From assembly GCA_002049455.2 (NCBI GenBank), contig KV918829.1:1-64000 (forward strand): a stretch of DNA of 64,000 bases. Direction: 5' to 3'. Source of the stretch: Porphyra umbilicalis (Eukaryota > Rhodophyta > Bangiophyceae > Bangiales > Bangiaceae). Made by a program: the position numbers and the translations under genes. The notes beneath the pieces were generated by a model. The model ran no database searches. It was not told the origin of the DNA and saw nothing but the letters and a program-made list of their open reading frames with translations. This document shows, piece by piece, positions 881 to 37,492 of this stretch; the stretch's first letter is position 1, and each line of letters begins with the position of its first letter.

Positions 881-1480
881 GGGGGCGCGGGGTCGCCGAC
901 GCGCCCCGCCGTACCGGCGCGCGCGAGACGTGGTGGAGCGCGCGGCGGGGCGGGCGCCGGCGTGGGCGGGCGGGCGACAGGGTAGGCGGGCAGGCAACGG
1001 GGAGAGGAGGTATGCGCCGCGATGGGCGGGTACGGGGGCGTGGGGTCGCCAACGCGCCCCGCCGTACCGGCGCGCGCGAGGCGTGGTGGAGCGCGCGGCG
1101 CGGCGGGCGCCGGCGTGGGCGGGCGGGCGACAGGGTAGGCGGGCAGGCACCGGGGCGAGGAGGCGGCATGCGCCGCGACGGGCGGGTACGGGGGCGCGGG
1201 GTCGCCGACGCGCCCCGCCGCACCGGCGCGCGCGAGGCGTGGTGGAGCGCGCGGCGCGGCGGGCGCCGGCGTGGGCGGGCGGGCGACAGGGTAGGCGGGC
1301 AGGCACCGGGGCGAGGAGGCGGCATGCGCCGCGACGGGCGGGTACGGGGGCGCGGGGTCGCCGACGCGCCCCGCCGCACCGGCGCGCGCGAGGCGTGGTG
1401 GAGCGAGCGACGGGGCGGGCGCCGGCGTGGGCGGGCGGGCGACAGGGTAGGCGGGCAGGCGTCGGGGTCGGCGAGAAGGC
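881..1480. repeat. minisatellite, about 4 x 153-156 bp
   Basis: The same GC-rich unit starts at 881, 1034, 1190 and 1346, so the period is 153 then 156 bp; one unit is shortened by three bases. Copies are nearly identical. All six frames are open because the unit length is a multiple of three and few stops occur, which explains the long Arg/Gly and Pro/Ala-rich ORFs on both strands. I see no sign that it is translated. Confidence 0.9.
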
Positions 1481-1869
1481 GCCGAGGCGCATGAGCGACA
1501 GGGTGGGCGAGCGTGCGGCGGCGCCGAGGCGCGGGCCGCGGCAGTGGCGCTACGCGGGGGCGCGCGGGGGTGTGCCGGGGCGCCGGTGCGACAGGTCACG
1601 GGATCCCGGGACGTCGCGTCGCAACCTGATCCGCGCTAAAAAAAAACAATTCTTTGAAGTATTATGTTTGGACAGATTCTTTCCGTTGTGGGTCAGAGCT
1701 GATGAGGATCTTTTGAGTATCCTCCGGATGGTCGGTGATCGTTGATCGGTTTCATCTTCATCGAACTACCGAATGGATGGACTGTTCCTAGCTGTTTTTC
1801 TTGCATCGGATGATGGCCCTCGATGAGCCAAGATGACCGCCGATGCAACTGATTGTCCAAGGAAACGAT

Positions 1870-1914
1870 GTAGTATCTGGGGCTCCCGATCACAATGCAA
1901 AATTTTGCATGGGG
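1870..1914 (+). repeat. inverted-repeat arm, left
   Basis: A block containing GTAGTAT, then CCGATCACAATGCAAAA, then GCATGGGG matches the reverse complement of 5307-5352. The core CCGATCACAATGCAAAA is identical in both arms and the rest is diverged. The two arms could be old terminal inverted repeats of a 3.5-kb element or two opposed copies of a short repeat. No target duplication is visible. Confidence 0.45.
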
Positions 1915-4231
1915 TGGTCCCCGAGGAGCTCTGAGAGCGCTCGCTGCTCGTGGCTGGCACTGCGCGTCAAGGACGTGGCCCAGAAGCCACGCGGGAATGC
2001 CTTGACCATTGCATTTACTGCATGGCTGGTGCAATACCATGTCCTGGCGTGTGGTGTCGGTGGTCATAACGACATGCATGGTCGACCCCCCCCTGTGGGG
2101 TGCCGTGCGGCACCTCCTCCACAGAGCGGCCCACGCTCCCCCCCTGCACATTGCTGTGATCCACGCCTTCCGACCGCCGTATCGGCCGTGATGCCCGTAT
2201 CTGCGACCGTTTCACCCACCGCCTGGCCCGCCCGCCCCCCCACCCCGCCCGACCCCTCCCCCCACCCGCCCCCCCCCCCGCCCGCCCCCCCCCGCCGCCC
2301 GCCCCCCCCATCTGCTCCCTCTGCTCCCCCGCTCCCGCCTTCCTGCTCTTCTCTCTTTTGCTGGCGCTTTCCGACCAGCGGGGGCCGGCGGTGCGGGCGG
2401 CCCCCACCCCTCTCCCCGCTGCGTCGCGCCGCGCCACCCGCGCCGCTGCGACAGCCGCCCCCGCTTTCCCTCCCCCCTGCTCTACCACTACCGTTCACCG
2501 CTTCCCCGGTCCTAGCTCCCCCTGCGCCCTTCCTCCGCACTCCGGGTGGGGGACGTTGCCAGCAGGCACCGGCCCCCGCCCCGCCGGGCCGCGGCGTGCT
2601 CCTCACTAGCCTCCCCTCGCTGTGGGGTTGGGCGCCCCTCGCCGGAGGCAGGCGGTCTCTGGCGGGTCGGGCTGGCGGTGGCGGTGCTTGGCGGTGAGGT
2701 GCAGGCGCCGGCGTCGGGTGCCAGCAAGCAGGGGGGGGTGCGGCAGCGGGGGCGCTCCCGGTCTCGGCTGTTGGCGTGGGGGCTCCGGCGAGTAGGCTGG
2801 CAAGCGGCGGCGGTTACGCGTCGGCGGTTGGCGGGAGTACCGGTTGTAGGTAACGGCTGGTGGTGGCGGGTTTTGGCCCGGGTGGTCAGAGGCCATCGAT
2901 CGTGGATGGGGCGGCTGGTGGTGGTGGCTGGTGGTGGGGGCGGCCGGCGGCGGTAGGGGCCGGCGGCGGGGTCGGTCGGCGAGCAGCGGCTCTATGAAGG
3001 CCAAGCTGTTGATCAAAAGCATGACTGTTGTTGTGTCTTCTGCAAAGCATAGGCGGGCAGGGGTAGCTGGTGTGGAGAGTAGGTAGGGGTGAGAGGGGGT
3101 CACGCAAGGGGGGGGGTATGCGTCATCTGTTTTCGGCTGTTGCTGGCTGCTACGGTGCTTGTGAAGCCATGCACATAGCAGTGTGTGTCCACTGTGTCCC
3201 CACAGACCACTGTACACAACAAAGTGGGCCGTTAGAGGCCTCCTGTTACCAGTGGGTGCCAGAGTACATTGGTGATACAACCGCCCGTAACGAGTGATGG
3301 GCCACGGATAAGTGTGCGTGAGGCTCTCATGGGACTGTTAGGGAGGGCCCAGAGTGCTTTGGCGGCATACCACCTCCGCAGGGGGCTCGTACGCTCGCTA
3401 TTGGGGTGGCTGGGAAGGCTGAAAGCACGTTACGCGCAGTGGGCATCCTATGACAGTACTGGTGTGGCTTTTCAGGCTCTATCAGGAGTACGCCATGTAG
3501 CACAGCTAATGCACACAGAAAGTTGGCCGGCAGATGGGCCGGGCGTCGTGGGGGGGTAGCGGTGTATCTCGCCGCTGTGAACTTGGACGGGCGAAAAGAG
3601 AAGGAAAAAATCGTTTGTGCGCTTAGCGACTCACTATTTCCTTCCCAGGACCCTTCAGAGCATCAGAAACGAGTCTCTCTGAAAAAGTGATGTTTTGGTC
3701 GAGTTCGGCCCCGACATGCCGTATGCTCCCCCTTCTTGGACCATATGGCAGCGGGGAACGCGGCGGTGACAAGACCATACCGATCCCCACCGAAGTTGAA
3801 AAAAATGGGGACATGGTACTGTAGGAGACATGAAACATTGTTTTCTTTGCAAAAAAAGATGCAGAACTGTTGTAGGCCGCAAGAGAAGCGCAGGGTCACA
3901 ACCCACTGGATGGAACAGTGTCAGAGAAAACAAGTGATCCACTGGATTGGGCAGTGTCCGTGTCGATCTGCCGAATACACTGGATCTGAGATGCTGTCAG
4001 CGGGGGTCCATTCACACTGCTTGGTGAAGTCATCTCCAGCCTGATCTGCCGCCAGGCCCCCCTCAGTTGGTTGCCACGACGGTCACGACTGCCGTCGTCA
4101 GTGCCTTTCTTTCCGTTGTGTTGGTTCTGACGTGCTGATAAAAGGTTCCACCTCCCTCCTGCCCCCGTCTCCCATCTCTTCTCCCCAGCAGTGATGCTTC
4201 TTCGCTCACTTCCCCCTGCAGTCGCTGTTCC

Positions 4232-31215: not shown

Positions 31216-31248
31216 CATATGTGGCGCCTTACGATAAGATCCTCATTG
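31216..31248 (+). repeat. left TIR of the 6.3-kb transposon
   Basis: The sequence starts CATATGTGGCGCCTTACGAT and ends CCTCATTG. It differs from the inverse of 37460-37492 at one base. Confidence 0.85.
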
Positions 31249-31968
31249 TTTGCGCGAACGTCTTTTTCGAGATAGGACCGCCACCAGATGCGCCGAGTCG
31301 TGATCTCTCCGTTGGCGCCCCTTCTGCAAGCGAGGGTGATCCGCATTGGCAATTACAGAGGCATAAGTCGAATTTTCACATTTCAGTGACTTTAGGCAAA
31401 GCCCAGAAAAGTGCACGGATTATAGAGTTCATTGGCGGGCTACATCTCGGACGACACACCGCGATGCAGCAGCTCAACTCGCGCCACCCCTGCTGTTTGG
31501 CGGGATCCGCACTTGGCGGGCTCACGCGCGCGGTTGCCGGAGACTCCCGTGAGTCGGGGGCTCGTTGCCATTTGCCCCGCTGCTTTTGAGACGTGCGCCG
31601 GGTTGCCTACGCCGCGCTCCTCCGTGCACCGCCACGCTCCACGGGGCACTGCCGCTCGTGGCGCTACGCTCGCCCTTGAGGCGTGCGCCCCATCGTCCAC
31701 GCCGCGCTCCGCCGTGCACTGCCGCACGTGCCGCTCTGCGCTGCGAGTATCGACTTCACGATTGTTCTCTGTACGTCGCCATCGCTATAAGGGTGCTAGG
31801 ACTAGGAGAGAGCTGACACGGACCACAGCTGGCTACCTTCATGTTTCTTTTTTGGTCGACGCTCTGTGCGCGGTTGGGCAGCGGTGTCTGACAGCGATAT
31901 CAGTGCCATGCGTTCTTTCCTTTCTATTTTCTTCCCCTCTTGGTGCCTCACATGCCTTCACAGACGAC

Positions 31969-34004
31969 ATGGAGGACGCGTCCGCGGGCGTTGGGGGCGC
32001 CACCCCCGCTGCCTCCCCAAGCGGCAGTCACCGTACGCGTGGCAGCGACGGTCTTCTTATGCTGTATGCGGCTGGCGTGGGCCTCCCTGTGCGGGGCCCT
32101 GGCTCCAGGGCGTCCAACTTGTCTGCAGCGGACGCTCGTAGGCCTGGTTGCAACGGCACCCTGCCCCTGGTGGCGATCGGTGGCCCCGCCAGTGGCGCTC
32201 CCTCGCTCCCCCTCGGTGCCTCTGGCCGGGCGACCGATGAGCTCCGCCGAAGAGGCGTCGGCCCGGCGGCGGCCACTCTCTGGCTCGACGATGGCGGCGC
32301 CTTCGGCGTAGCTGAGGACAGTGGGGCTGCCGGCGGCGCCCGCTCCCCCCCCCCTGCGGATTTTGAAGGCGCGTCCCATGCTCCACGCGTAGGCGGCGAC
32401 GGCTCGGCGACAGCCCCTCTCCGGCTCCACAACGGCGGCGCCCTCGACGTGGCCGCAGACGGTGAAGCGACTGGCGGCGCTCGCCCCCGGCCCAAAGCGG
32501 GTTTCTTCGGGGCGACCGATGCGCTCCGCCTAGGCGGCGCTGCGGCTGCCGCCCACCGGCTCCACGACGGCGGCACCCTCGACTTGGCGGTGGACGGTGA
32601 AGCGGCTGGTGACGCCAGCGGTCTTCCTCATGGAGATGTTGGGGAATCGGCCGATGCGCGGCGCAGCGGCGCCGTCTCCAACGACGCTCCTGCGAATGTT
32701 GACGCTGGTGCACGGGGAGGTCGGGCAGACGGTGAGCAACCTGGTGCGCTCGGCGCCACCCAGCGCTCAAGGGTCCCGCTTCCCTTCGTACGGAAGCTTC
32801 GACTGCACATGGATTCATGTCCGGGCACGAACAAGTCCCAGTTCTTTTTTGGGGGCCTGGGCTTGCTGCTAGCGTGCGGCGTTGCCGACTGCGCGCAGGT
32901 CCTGTACATGGTCGTGGGCCATACCAAGTTTGGCCCAGACCTGGTGGCACGGTCCTTGGCGGGTATCTTTAACCGGTCGGACGTGTACAACCACGGGCAG
33001 CTGGTGCGCCTCTTCCGCGCGTACGCGACTGCGGGCGCCTACAACGAGACGCTCCTGCGGACATGGAAGCAGGGCACCCCAACGGTTTTCACGCCCATTC
33101 AACACATCATGTCCTACCGATGCATCTTGCTCCTGGCCGACGACGGACATGTGGACCTTGGGAGCCCCGTCGCCTCCCCCCCCCCAATTTTGAGGCGTTC
33201 CCTGACCCTGGACCACTATTTTTGGACCATGTCCTCATGCGAGAATGCACCAAGGCGGCTGGTCGCGGGCTCCGGTCGAGCGTCTTCCCCGCGCTCCGCC
33301 GGGGTGCCTATCGGGGTATTGGGCGGGACGCGGTGGGGGGCCTCAACGACGCCCCAAAGCAGACGATGCTGCTACCTCCAGCGGTGCTGTCCTACCGACG
33401 GGTGCGACTCTTCACTCGCCGGTCCACCGCTGACCCAGTCTGGCGTGAGCAGCGGGGATGGATGTCCGCGACGACGGTTGAGCAGGTCAACGCGGCCATC
33501 GACGCGATCAAGCCGTACGGGCTGGAGCAGAGCAAGGTGCCATATGGAGCAAAGGCCGAGTCGATCGCCAAGATGTACGAGAAGTACGTGCCCCGCCGGT
33601 TTGTACCCGACGACTACGCCGTCTCCGAAACCGGTGCGAGCGGCATGGCACGCGCCGTGTGGAGACAGACGTCCATTTCGCCCGCCACCACGGAGCAATC
33701 GACCACGCCGGGCGTTGCGACAGCCGGGACGGGAGCCAAAGACGCTGAAGGATGCGGCGGTACCGCGATCTGCCCTGCTCCGGGGCGCTCAAGGAAGATG
33801 CAATGGGTCAAGCTCCAACACGCAAAGCCGCTTGCAGACCTGCTTCTTTGTGCTCCGTACAACGGACAATTGCCGCGAGCGCTCAAGGACTGGGCGGTCA
33901 TTGCGACCAGAATGCCACAGGAGGACGGCCAGGAGTGGGAGCCTGCCACGATCAAGCGGCACGCCAGGGTGATGGCCAAGTCGAGGGATGACTTGCATGA
34001 ATAA
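31969..34004 (+). CDS. DUF7869-like transposase, C-terminal half
   Basis: The chosen start is the ATG at 31969 (MEDASAGVGGATP); the frame is open further upstream to about 31,430, and a CTTCACAG just before could be a splice acceptor. The first ~240 residues are a low-complexity region with three degenerate ~50-residue repeats (ATDELRRRGV / APRVGGDGSA / ATDALRLGGA followed by LxDGGxxxVAxDGEAxGxA). The conserved part is RKLRLHMDSCPGTNKSQFFF, then LYMVVGHTKFGPD and a DVYNHGQLVRLF stretch, which match DUF7869 proteins thought to be RNase H-fold transposases; MDSCPG would carry a catalytic Asp. After a C-run near 33,175-33,187 the protein-like sequence continues in another frame (NFEAFPDPG ... 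KSRDDLHE) to the stop at 34004. That indicates one indel or a homopolymer error. Confidence 0.65.
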
Positions 34005-34148
34005 ATTCTATGTTCTCTGTCGAGAGCCGAGGTTATTTTCCGCGACAACAAAAAGGGAAAACGAAGCACTAGTATCAGAGCTACCAAAGAGATGTATCAA
34101 ACAAGATGCACACGGAAGGTGATAACGGCGCCACGTCAAGAGAAGGAG

Positions 34149-36377
34149 CTAGTGCTCGGGGCCGTATCCTGTCCGGTACACAGGTGGGTCATCGACACCG
34201 ATGTTCAGCGAGCCCAGTAGAAGGTCGCATAGCGTCGACAGGGTGTCATCCGATGACTTGGCGCCGCCCACCATCTCGCTGCGCGTGTACACGTTGTTCC
34301 GGGAGAAGCGGGTGCGACCGTTGGCGGACCCACAGCTCTCGGCACAAAAGATGTGCACGTAGTGGGTGTGGCCCGACATGAAGTAGGTGGGTCCAGGCTG
34401 CGGAGACTGGTTCCACACCGGCACGGACTTGTCCTGCTGGTAGTCTGAAGACAAATCAAACCAATCATCACTGGCTGCGCACACGAGCGCCTCCAGCTTA
34501 GCCTCGTCCACGTCCACAGGCAGCTGCATGTCCGTCGCGTCTGCAGGAAACAGCTTGTAGAACAGCACCGACAGGCGCTCGTACCGCTTCGCGGCGTTGA
34601 CCACGCATTGGCGGTGGTGCTGCACGGCGCAGGCCGCCTCATCCTCGTGCGCTTCGTGTGCCGCCTCCAGGTCTGCGATCGTTTGCTTCACCTCCGCGAT
34701 GGCCTGCTGCCGGATCAGAGAGCCCTTGTCGCCCTGCTGCTCATGACGCTTCATCGCCTGGCGGGCTGACCGCAAGTCGGCTCGCAGGCACTCGCAAGTT
34801 GAGCACGCGTCTGTCTTGTGCGGGTACAGGGTTGTGTGCTCCTCTGACGGGACCGCCTTGCCGTCGACGCGGAGCGTGGACCCAAAGTACTCTTTCAGCC
34901 AGCGTAGGGGCACCTCGCCGTTGACCTTAGCACGCCCTGACGCCACGAGCGCCTCTATAAAGCCGGCCGAGAAGGAGAGTCGGGCACAGTCGCCGCTTAC
35001 CTTGTCCGCCGCCATTCGCAACACCTTTCACTTGGCGTCCAAGTAGTAGGCAGCCCCGTGGTAGCGCCCATTCTTGTCGGGTGTCCTGCCCGTTGGCGTC
35101 CTGTGTGCCCGCACAAAGACAACAAACAGCTCGCGCTCCGCCGACTTCATGCGGTTGGATGGTCGCCCCGAGAGGGCGTGGTCGGAGTAGACGGCCACTA
35201 CCTTGAAGCGCCAGTTTTCCGAGCTGCTTGTGCAGAACTGCGAAACGGAGAGCAGGCAGGTGTCCGGTCTGATGATGCGCTTGATGAGGCCCTCCGAGTT
35301 TGGGCTGGACGCAATCTCGGACTTGGTCATGAGGATAACCGGGGCCTTGGCCGCCTGCACAGCCTGCTTGTGGCGTTGGGCGAGCCAGGCGTTGGAGACC
35401 CCGAGGAACTCGAGCGCGCACTTTTCGTGCACGACCATGTTGCCCTGCCCATCGAACAGCAGTTCCATGACGATCGACCCCAGGCGCGCGTAGTTGTACA
35501 CCGACTGGGCGCCCTTGCAGTCCCCGTCTTTTTCCGCTTTACGCCGCTCTCGTGCTGTACGCCGAGCCGGCGTAAGCCGGTCCGCAAAGGAATTCATCAC
35601 GGATTGGCAGCTGCAGCGGCCGTTCGCGTCGAAGAATACGCGGCTTGCTGGCGCCGAGGATGCCGCCTCGAAAGAGGTGGGCACCGTGCCGTTACTGTAC
35701 GTGCGTGGAAGATGCCGCCGCGCCCGCCCCTCCGCCAACACCGAGGCGTGGTTCAGGCGCCGAGCCGGCCCCGGCACATACTTGCGCCTCTTTCGAGGCC
35801 GCCTGGTCGAGTTGATGTCCGTCGAGTCGGTGCCGCTGCTCTCGTCCTCGGGGTCGATCTGGAAGTCGGAACCGTCGCTGCTACCGTCGTCTTGGGTGGC
35901 GTCCTCTGGCACATCCGCCCGCCTGCCGATCCTCGACGGCGACTCGGTGTTTCGGGCGGGTCTTTTGGTGGAGTCACCGCCCTTGTCCATCTGCAGGTCG
36001 TTGGTCGTCTGCCCGCCCGAAACGGCAGCGCCAGCGTTGACGATGGACATCCCCATCGGTGGGGCCCATGGGCGACTTACAGCAGGTGCCGCGGGAAGAG
36101 GGGAGACCACGAGCAGTGCCGCCTCAGGTGAAGCGGGAAGAGCGGGGAGCATGCCTTGGGCCGTCCGCGGTGCGGCGGGAAGAGACGTCTGCACAGACTG
36201 AGCAGAGACGAGCCGCTGAAACCGCCGACGCTGCACTGGCATGACGCCGAGTTGCTCAAGGTCGCCCGCGGTGACGAACTCCAAGTCTGAAACCGTCTGC
36301 ACCCCCATCTCCTCTTCAAAGGCAACCAGGTATTTCTCAAACCTGTTGGTCGTCATCCAGTCCCGAAGAGACGACAT
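34149..36377 (-). CDS. SAM-domain protein with DUF7869-like N-terminal half
   Basis: One reading frame runs from 36377 to 34149 with a single TGA at 35030-35028. The codon context (AYYLDAK-TGA-KVLRMAADK) suggests a TGG-to-TGA change; alternatively these are two genes. Residues ~4-57 (LRDWMTTNRFEKYLVAFEEE ... GVMPVQRRRFQRLV) form a sterile alpha motif domain, usually a protein-protein interaction module. Then come an acidic Ser/Asp-rich linker, a basic PRKRRK motif, a Cys pair in RCSCQSVMNSFADR, and a globular region. The C-terminal third has HKTDACSTCECL, a charged coiled coil, and GPTYFMSGHTHYVHIFCAES, which is the region that precedes the DxCxGxNK motif in DUF7869 proteins. The catalytic half is absent here and lies on the opposite strand. 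Confidence 0.6.
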
Positions 36378-37459
36378 AGTCGGGCACCCAATTGCAGGGG
36401 CACCAGGACAGCTGTGGAGCGGGATAGATAGAGGTAAGGTGAGTTGGAAAGATCCCGCAGAGAGGCCAGCAGCAGAGCAGCCCTTGTGTCCCCACAGGTC
36501 TTAAGTAGAGGCATCCCACGTGGAGCACGCATGCACACGTACCCATAAGCCGTGATATCGCCGGCAACCTGCTATTGGAGGGCTCGCGAGCGCCGACGAC
36601 CCGACAGGCACGCGGCGCGCACGGCGGGAGCCTGGGCTCGGGCAGGTACCGGTGCAAAAGCGAAACTGTCCGACAAGTACGCAGGCCCATCGACAAGAAA
36701 CGGCTGGAGGGGAAGACCCAGCAACAGAGCCGACGGCGGCAGCTCCAGCTCGAGCTGCAGTCGACGCAGGCACCTGCCAGCTCAAATCGAAGCAGAAGGG
36801 TCGACGCGCCAGCCAACCGACATGAAACGGTTGTCGGGAGCGGTGAGGCAGTGGAGGGGGCCCTGACAGGCGTCAGTACCAGACCCAGTCCGCTAATCTC
36901 AGGACGCCACCACCGCCTCAGAGCCCTGCGGTGGGCGCCGGGAGGCTGCTGCTCACCCAGCAAGACAACAGGAGACGTCCAAAGAGACTGCTCGCCGAGT
37001 GCCTACCAACTCCAGGAGCCATGAGACAGCGGACAGCGGCTGGTCACCAGTGCCAGCCGCGAGACCCCTCTCCCATCGTACCTGACTGAAGGTGCGTCGT
37101 GTGCCGTTCGATGAATGAACGTGAACAGTCCGCGGCAGAGCGAGAAGGTACACCCCAGCTGTCGGTGCAGTCACGTAGATGCGGTGCACCTGTGGCCGCG
37201 CTCTCCCAGGTGTCCCAGCAATAACGGAAAGGCTGACAACGCCGGACTCGGCCGCGTGTCGGTCGAGACGTGACTGTCACAGCAGTGCGCTCGATGGCGA
37301 GGTGGAGCGGCACGCGCACACTGGCGTGGGGCCTGGATCACGCGGCTCAACTGACTGCTGCGTGGAACCCCCTCGTCGGGCACTGAGGGGGTCGCTCCGG
37401 AAGACTTTTGGATGCACAATCTTCAAAGGCCCGTATCTCAGCTCGACCGATCTCAATTG

Positions 37460-37492
37460 CAATGAGGATCTTATCGTAAGACGCCACATATG
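37460..37492 (-). repeat. right TIR of the 6.3-kb transposon
   Basis: Inverse partner of 31216-31248; the terminal bases form CATATG at 37487-37492. Confidence 0.85.

Follow-up and report, generated by a model that had tools for sequence, protein, structure and literature searches.

A red-algal TIR transposon with two convergent genes that probably divide a DUF7869-type transposase

The window, a stretch of 64,000 nucleotides from Porphyra umbilicalis (contig KV918829.1, positions 1 to 64,000), contained a TIR transposon of 6.27 kb with two convergent genes. Its inverted arms at 31216-31248 and 37460-37492 were genuine (33 nt, 97% identity). They confirmed the 33-bp TIRs of the initial annotation as inverted arms, and comparison of copies assigned part of this length to the target duplication. 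The element itself extended from about 31221 to 37487 (GTGGCG...CGCCAC), with 28-bp TIRs at 31221-31248 on the plus strand (GTGGCGCC...) and 37460-37487 on the minus strand. In a 4-bp reading, the target site duplication is ATAT at 31217-31220 and again, identically, at 37488-37491; ATAT happens to be a palindrome. Alternative ends are TGTGG...CCACA. Counting the outer T and A to the element adds one base at each end and leaves a duplication of 2 bp.

The left terminal 65 bp had 35 matches across the genome, right ends included. Both ends were located for 20 elements from the 25 sources examined. Identical 4-bp duplications flanked 19 of the 20, in 18 of these 19 with the form ANNT. C3 and C290 likewise showed identical 4-bp duplications. 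In C132, the 4 bp contained one mismatch, and in C151 the duplication was out of register, comprising 3 bp (GAT) if the ends are TGTGG...CCACA. Element ends were looked for in C198 and not found. Judged from these flanks, the target duplication would be 4 bp (ANNT), or 2 bp with the terminal T...A inside the element, a reading that fits nearly as well. Terminal repeats shared by dispersed copies and a target duplication of fixed length (4 or 2 bp, according to the reading) placed the family in the class of TIR cut-and-paste DNA transposons. The same ends were found on 18 short derivatives of 310-311 bp, with a median pairwise identity of 0.945 and a minimum of 0.743.

The two genes were convergent, as initially annotated. 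The plus gene (31969-34004) comprised a low-complexity N-terminus, the C-terminal part of DUF7869 and a conserved C-terminal region, and carried the expected motifs MDSCPGTNKSQF and VVGHTKFGPD. Its Pfam match to DUF7869 (PF25273) covered model positions 59-138 at 32791-33027 on the plus strand, including LHMDSC and VVGHTKFGPD. The stretch preceding this match was low-complexity when read by eye and contained internal repeats. The minus gene (36377-34149) encoded a SAM domain, a linker, a conserved region and a zinc-like CxxC/HHxxC region, followed by a segment that resembles DUF7869 in its N-terminal part. The SAM domain occupied residues 1 to about 55 (36213-36377, minus strand). The DUF7869-like segment, aligned with hhalign, lay at 34197-34466 on the minus strand (WFDLSSDYQQD...QPGPTYF...SDDTLSTLCDLLLG). 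With CSTC and PGPTYF, the CxxC/PTYF region was present on this gene, as had been proposed.

Both genes of the window copy were interrupted, an observation absent from the initial annotation. The plus gene was broken by a change of frame in or near a run of ten C at 33176-33185; intact relatives encode 678 aa in C132 and 612 aa in C3. In the minus gene, TGA at 35028-35030 interrupted the frame at a codon that reads Trp in C132 and C151; the uninterrupted relative in C151 encodes 729 aa. Stops and frame changes were scattered over the copies, and none of the assembled copies had both genes intact. A TGA common to C290 and C484 was considered as a selenocysteine codon and rejected as a probable coincidence of decay. 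Four loci searched with a limit of E 10 gave seven matches, none of them a SECIS element, and there was no tRNA-Sec above cut-off among the 53 of 8857 candidates that were scored; four weaker matches all lay on the plastid contig. The selenocysteine machinery is reported as absent from Bangiophyceae and Florideophyceae (PMC6627142).

Searches of the same assembly with the minus gene and with the plus gene returned an identical set of nine contigs (C69, C132, C151, C290, C198, C3, C484, C28 and C16). Both genes were present and convergent at 9/9 loci bearing either gene. C28 and C16 were fragments, in which the plus-gene search matched only the C-terminal part. A collinear, unsplit DUF7869 gene was not found in the assembly among six Pfam matches or nine plus-gene loci. 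The lowest pairwise protein identity among seven copies was 42-43%. C69 and C132 were 97.9% identical across 6276 bp, and their similarity ended at the TIRs (query flank 116 and 109 bp). The split form has thus moved, since this near-identical pair occupies unrelated sites. Together with the short derivatives, the pair points to past mobility of the family.

The window plus protein scored 25.4 bits against DUF7869 in the Pfam hmmscan (E 1.2e-5, cut-off 26), and its score was 28 bits when the whole genome was searched. In the latter search, all six matching loci exceeded the curated cut-off, which assigns the family to this Pfam entry. Among single plus proteins analysed by hmmscan, C290 reached 29.9 bits, above 26, and C69, C132 and C3 lay just below with 24.7-25.4 bits. 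In 6/6 loci the match left out the start of the 192-position model, beginning only at 59 or 60, and the whole model was not found in one chain in the red-algal family.

The SAM domain of the minus gene was supported by Pfam SAM_TNK and by the PDB structure ARAP2. SAM_TNK scored 20.6 bits in the window protein and 20.6-24.2 bits across six copies including it, all under the cut-off of 25. Only the relic C16 passed the Pfam cut-offs, with 29.4 bits for SAM_TNK (cut-off 25) and 26.5 bits for SAM_1 (cut-off 23). The minus protein of C151 matched the ARAP2 chain with E 0.0026. The Pfam scan of the C198 minus protein gave no SAM match. The annotated SAM domain was therefore upheld by weak scores in the window and five further copies and by the relic above cut-off.

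A collinear relative, L080, was found on contig MHBB01000045.1 of the Legionellales MAG RIFCSPHIGHO2_12_FULL_35_11. It lay in a bacterial MAG contig, and its end overlapped the frame of a Schlafen/AlbA_2 gene. Its single frame of 640 aa contained S-D-x-C-x-x-C, then DFAQ...QQVGPIYF, then ADNC...VVGHTKFSPD, which is the order expected for the minus protein (A) followed by the plus protein (B). It covered DUF7869 model positions 14-186. L080 and the red-algal element shared DUF7869, TIRs starting with G-N-GGC, the motifs S-D-x-C-x-x-C, QxGPxYF and GHTKFxPD, and a duplication of the form ANNT, in L080 AATT. In contrast to the red-algal element, L080 had one gene and one chain within 2.1 kb, and no SAM match at E <= 1. 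The plus family profile aligned to residues 430-565 of this protein with an hhalign score of 78, against a shuffle maximum of 27 (n = 200). L080, the only real collinear protein found, does have these motifs in one chain, as the initial annotation stated for DUF7869 proteins. A collinear, TIR-flanked gene also supports DUF7869 as a TIR-transposase domain.

Among further prokaryotes, 369 genomes from the class yielded 2 with a match to the family model at E <= 0.001, one of them, the L080 genome itself, above cut-off; from the order, 1 of 143 genomes matched. No relative was confirmed in IMG/VR with both halves, three DNA patterns, typed probes and the L080 protein as queries. The first two DNA patterns gave nine stretches, which were translated, L078 being followed further, and the third pattern gave seven stretches. 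Phages and plasmids gave no match. No paper in the collection searched contained DUF7869, and among the matches listed there was nothing comparable on split transposase genes, SAM domains combined with transposases or red-algal transposons.

The resemblance of the minus C-terminus to the N-terminal half of DUF7869 was assessed against the real collinear protein L080 and against two collinear DUF7869 probes, t1 and t2, typed after the window had been read. Against the two typed probes together, the minus segment reached an hhalign score of 33.4 (shuffle maximum 24.5, n = 200). Subsets were each tested twice, with 60 shuffles per test. Scores were 29.8 and 28.3 for t2 alone, with no shuffle as high in either test, and 22.4 and 21.0 for t1 alone, with none and at least one as high. 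L080 with t1 gave 21.8 and 20.6 (at least one and one as high), and the L080 N-half alone 18.0 and 17.3 (two and one as high). Compared with L080, the segment aligned at the expected place but not significantly, with a score of 18.3; the top five of 200 shuffles scored 21.5-26.4. A separate alignment test of the two was not significant, with 69/150 shuffles as high. For the whole minus gene against L080, 183/400 shuffles were as high with strict gaps and 21/400 with loose gaps. The loose-gap test was regarded as unspecific because the plus gene gave 4/400 against the same region. DUF7869 was not found in the minus protein by hmmscan, which also missed the typed N-half alone.

Motif order provided a further line of comparison. 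Q.GP.YF occurred at the corresponding place in 7/7 minus copies, and when the C151 sequence was shuffled 50,000 times it appeared in 7 of the shuffles. The D.C..C motif was present in 5/7 minus copies. The CxxC region was followed by D[FY].Q...Q.GP.YF, the same order as upstream of the shared part in L080, and the end of the minus protein fell near the start of the plus part. The case for the minus C-terminus as a homologue of the DUF7869 N-half is no more than suggestive against L080 and becomes clear only with the typed probes, mainly t2. The minus gene probably carries DUF7869 sequence. Of the two halves to which the initial annotation had attributed DUF7869 similarity, the plus half was confirmed by its Pfam match and the minus half is probable only.

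The dN/dS ratio was below 0.46 in all computable comparisons (79/84; five were saturated). It ranged from 0.06 to 0.25 in the DUF7869 part of the plus gene, 0.18 to 0.44 in the plus C-terminus, 0.14 to 0.38 in the C part and 0.27 to 0.45 in the N part of the minus gene, and pairs with dS >= 0.5 likewise had low values for either gene. Divergence of one gene tracked that of the other (r 0.97), a correlation at least equalled in 3 of 5040 permutations. The Asp was conserved in H.DSC in 6/6 copies covering the motif and in FGPD in 7/7; the proposed first catalytic Asp was Asn in C198. The profiles of proteins A and B had no match to an RNase H-like PDB sequence. Single-sequence AlphaFold models were poor and uninformative, with pLDDT 41.3 for the window minus C part and 36.5 for the plus DUF7869 part.

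The two-gene arrangement at each of the loci found, the short target duplications, the near-identical dispersed copies and the low dN/dS form the observed base of our interpretation. Probably, a DUF7869-type transposase gene was split ancestrally and has since been kept as two convergent genes, whose chains probably co-assemble. The simplest way to such a split would be an ancestral inversion of the 3' part. The choice initially offered, internal inversion or a true two-protein family, would thus resolve with both options partly true: an inversion is probable but ancestral, and not a rearrangement of one copy (9/9 loci convergent, dN/dS < 0.46). The catalytic domain would begin in protein A, behind the N-terminal SAM domain and the CxxC/HHxxC region, and would continue in protein B, between a low-complexity leader and the C-terminal region. 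The two may bind each other, possibly with the help of SAM, to restore a single RNase H-like core with the first acidic residue from A and the second and third from B. This core would cut the TIRs and insert the element, and the 310-311-bp derivatives with the same ends may have been moved in trans. In its strictest form, the proposal is of an obligate two-subunit transposase: a single core assembled in trans from opposite-strand polypeptides, stable for long, with the SAM domain recruited for assembly and expression of both strands needed. We advance this form tentatively, as about evenly poised between right and wrong.

Other explanations were weighed against an ancestral split. The minus protein might be an independent accessory factor, like mudrB in MuDR or the Myb-like protein of Harbinger. 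Transposase function would then lie with the plus protein alone, its N-terminal half having been replaced or having degenerated. Two-gene elements are known, among them the convergent MuDR as described in PMC3440606, and PIF/Harbinger needs both ORF1 and a TPase according to the account in PMC2836001. The failure of hmmscan to detect DUF7869 in the minus protein, and its similarity to L080 that is not significant alone, agree with such a role. Against it stand the ordered CxxC and D[FY].Q...Q.GP.YF motifs, which precede the shared part in L080, the minus protein ending near the plus start and the low-complexity sequence ahead of the DUF7869 part in the plus protein. We consider an accessory factor rather unlikely.

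A relic family with a functionless split, mobilised in trans by an unsplit transposase now lost or missing from the assembly, would suit the stops and frame changes scattered over the copies, none of which has both genes intact. Low dN/dS in both genes, also at dS >= 0.5, and the lack of an unsplit DUF7869 gene among the six Pfam matches and nine plus-gene loci make it improbable. Trans-splicing of the halves into a single chain would account for conserved halves on opposite strands; it is very improbable, as each gene has a long open frame complete with start and stop (729 aa in the minus gene of C151, 678 aa in the plus gene of C132). Finally, the window copy alone could have been rearranged in an otherwise collinear family, as would be indicated if all other copies were collinear. 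The convergent genes at all nine loci of the assembly, the fragments C28 and C16 included, refute this, and we rejected it as almost certainly wrong.

If the ancestral split holds, the family would be a natural split recombinase, in which a gene-breaking inversion was fixed by selection. It could serve as a model for a trans-assembled active site that limits transposition, with both strands needing transcription. The split-gene family further adds to the case that DUF7869, whose function is not assigned, is a domain of TIR transposases, and a bacterial MAG holds a relative. Two-protein transposons are known; to our knowledge, in those named here the catalytic domain lies entirely within one of the two proteins, and we know of no DUF7869 in MuDR. 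In the red-algal family, it is this domain that seems to be distributed over two convergent genes and to have stayed so. Among the family proteins scanned, DUF7869 was the only transposase model of Pfam to match, MULE and Harbinger transposases giving none, so that no homologous transposase links it to either group.

Maize MuDR/Mutator resembles the red-algal element in that its TIRs enclose two convergent genes, mudrA and mudrB, of which one encodes the transposase. It differs in that mudrA is described as a transposase rather than as part of one, and mudrB as being of unknown function (PMC3440606). The barley MuDR relative Abermu is listed with 9-bp TSDs and TIRs of 138-145 bp (PMC9168764). 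PIF/Harbinger (Ping/Pong), in the account of PMC2836001, is similar in requiring two element-encoded proteins, as the red-algal family may, and in mobilising MITEs. There, in contrast, transposase and second protein are distinct, the latter being a Myb/SANT DNA-binding protein in the Nuwa families, and the canonical TSD is given as 3 bp (both from PMC12730594). The same paper describes 2-bp TSDs and ends of 5'-TGT..ACA-3' for the PlavakaA lineage of fungal CMCT transposons. With the outer T and A taken as part of the element, the red-algal ends TGTGG...CCACA with their 2-bp duplication are PlavakaA-like, in the ends only.

Two convergent genes were found in the window element from reading frames and Pfam matches, as the initial annotation had described. 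The plus gene (31969-34004, plus strand) matched DUF7869 (PF25273) from model position 59 onward, and the minus gene (36377-34149, minus strand) held the SAM domain and the CxxC region. Both were broken in this copy, the minus gene by a TGA at 35028-35030 and the plus gene by a frame change in or near a C10 run at 33176-33185. The plus gene of a second copy, C151, changed frame at about the same C-rich place (stretch L056, near 2840-2870). Shared slippage, independent decay or homopolymer sequencing error may account for this. The annotated inverted arms at 31216-31248 and 37460-37492 were real in an inverted-repeat check of the window; their length of 33 bp takes in the ATAT palindrome of the target site on a 4-bp reading.

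Family copies were searched for in an assembly of 83.8 Mb on 665 contigs, in which contig C69 begins with the 64 kb of the window. The genome is that of a red alga, as indicated by phycobilisome genes on a plastid-like contig of 185 kb, where the phycocyanin subunits came closest to red-algal PDB chains. From 25 sources examined, 20 elements with both ends were obtained; 18 measured 310-311 bp and the other two 6.3 kb, with the common ends GTGGCG...CGCCAC. Four bp were repeated on either side, identically in 19 of the 20 and with one mismatch in copy C132; 18 of the 19 identical repeats had the form ANNT. The target duplication can be 4 bp with an ANNT preference, or 2 bp with a terminal T...A as part of the element. 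TGAT, seen in a single diverged derivative, is mild evidence for 4 bp, and C151, with 3 bp GAT beside TGTGG...CCACA, favours 2 bp. If the duplication is 4 bp, the window copy runs from 31221 to 37487 and is flanked on each side by ATAT.

The annotation had left open an internal inversion that split the gene or a family that truly works with two proteins. The minus protein, searched as two pieces, detected nine loci between them, and the plus protein detected the same nine and no other (C69, the window copy, and C132, C151, C290, C198, C3, C484, C28 and C16). The genes faced each other at all nine, which contradicts a single rearranged copy with collinear relatives. No collinear DUF7869 gene was found in the genome by a search that was intron-blind and scored only the best candidates. 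C28 and C16 were fragments, matched by the plus-gene search in the C-terminal part only, and C16 retained only the SAM part of its minus gene. C484 was cut by the contig end. Pairwise identity among the seven larger copies fell to 0.42 (minus) and 0.43 (plus). Pfam matches to DUF7869 occurred at six loci, each starting at model position 59 or 60. The two-gene arrangement is a family trait and not an accident of one copy.

No assembled copy had both genes intact. The plus gene was intact in C132 (678 aa; minus gene with a single TAG) and C3 (612 aa; minus gene broken), and the minus gene in C151 (729 aa; plus gene broken). In C198 a TGA interrupted the plus gene, and no counterpart of the first 174 positions, with SAM among them, was found in the 600-aa minus frame; C290 and C484 had stops in both genes. 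Pairwise identity in one gene was correlated with that in the other (r 0.97, a value reached by 3 of 5040 permutations). dN/dS was calculated by NG86 for four segments of seven copies, with 79 of 84 pairwise comparisons unsaturated. The unsaturated ratios, descriptive values from non-independent pairs in which many dS exceeded 1 and are rough, were 0.06-0.25 for the DUF7869 part and 0.18-0.44 for the C-terminus of the plus gene, and 0.14-0.38 and 0.27-0.45 for the C and N parts of the minus gene. For C69 and C151 (dS 0.57-0.78) the corresponding values were 0.07, 0.18, 0.16 and 0.31.

Over the full element, TIRs included, C69 and C132 shared 97.9% identity, and the query's flanks of 116 and 109 bp had no match at the other site. 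Movement of the element, by its own transposase or a different one, therefore came later than the split. The 310-311-bp derivatives are a MITE population of this family: their consensus matched the full element over the left 55 bp (93%) and right 75 bp (87%), and the 18 had a median pairwise identity of 0.945 (minimum 0.743). At least 18 derivatives had the same ends and duplications, for example in stretches L010, L012, L013 and L068.

A collinear relative was found with hand-typed DUF7869 probe sequences. L080, a Legionellales MAG contig (MHBB01000045.1), carried a TIR element at 998-3115 with 40-nt inverted repeats (98%), a length that takes in the target site, and AATT on either side; its left end overlapped the frame of a Schlafen/AlbA_2 gene. 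The single 640-aa frame matched DUF7869 with 88.9 bits (model positions 14-186) and held in one chain S-D-x-C-x-x-C, then DFAQ...QQVGPIYF, then ADNC...VVGHTKFSPD. DUF7869 is apparently a transposase domain, and one that has apparently entered bacteria too. The contig measures only 3566 bp and may be contamination.

The plus-gene profile aligned to L080 residues 430-565 with an hhalign score of 78 (shuffle maximum 27, n=200), and blastp of the C132 plus protein gave 5.5e-9. The minus C-terminus aligned at the expected place, residues 351-389, with a score of 18.3, below the five best of 200 shuffles (21.5-26.4). Against the N-half alone it scored 18.0 and 17.3 (2/60 and 1/60 shuffles as high), and two further alignment tests with L080 were negative or unspecific. 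Against two of the hand-typed probes it scored 33.4 (shuffle maximum 24.5, n=200), and the probes' two halves matched the two genes selectively. One probe alone was clear (29.8 and 28.3; 0/60 shuffles as high in both tests), the other borderline (22.4 and 21.0; 0/60 and at least 1/60). Q.GP.YF, a motif picked after being seen, stood at the corresponding place in 7/7 minus copies; among shuffles of the C151 sequence it occurred in 7 of 50,000. D.C..C was present in five of seven; the diverged C290 and C484 had TGA at the second Cys codon (S-D-A-C-P-L-TGA; L057 5500-5502, plus strand, and L060 1903-1901, minus strand). Synonymous differences surrounded this common TGA, and neither SECIS nor tRNA-Sec support for selenocysteine was found.

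The SAM_TNK match reached 20.6-24.2 bits in six copies, below the Pfam cut-off of 25. The strongest was the C16 relic (L062 4600-4770, minus strand, near and convergent with the plus-gene relic), with 29.4 bits for SAM_TNK and 26.5 for SAM_1 (cut-off 23). The Pfam scan found no SAM domain in C198. The C151 N-terminus matched ARAP2 in PDB entry 1x40 (E 0.0026), a chain that we take to be a SAM domain.

The data show that the two convergent genes have stayed together, that the element has TIRs and makes a short target duplication, and that it moved after the split. Assigned by eye, the break would lie between helix-like DDTLSTLCDLLL on the minus gene and strand-like RKLRLHMDSC on the plus gene. 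In an RNase H fold such a break would separate helix A from strand 4, leaving one chain with the first catalytic acid and its partner with the remaining two; the chains would then have to assemble. C198 has Asn where the first catalytic Asp is proposed, and structure prediction of both halves gave poor single-sequence folds and no structural support for a split RNase H core. By analogy, the SAM domain could plausibly serve in assembly. Of the two original options, a family that works with two proteins is to be preferred; its arrangement is observed, its joint action we infer. The two-gene state likely arose by an ancestral inversion. A TIR transposon as such is already known; as far as the literature searched shows, the divided, inverted catalytic gene is new.
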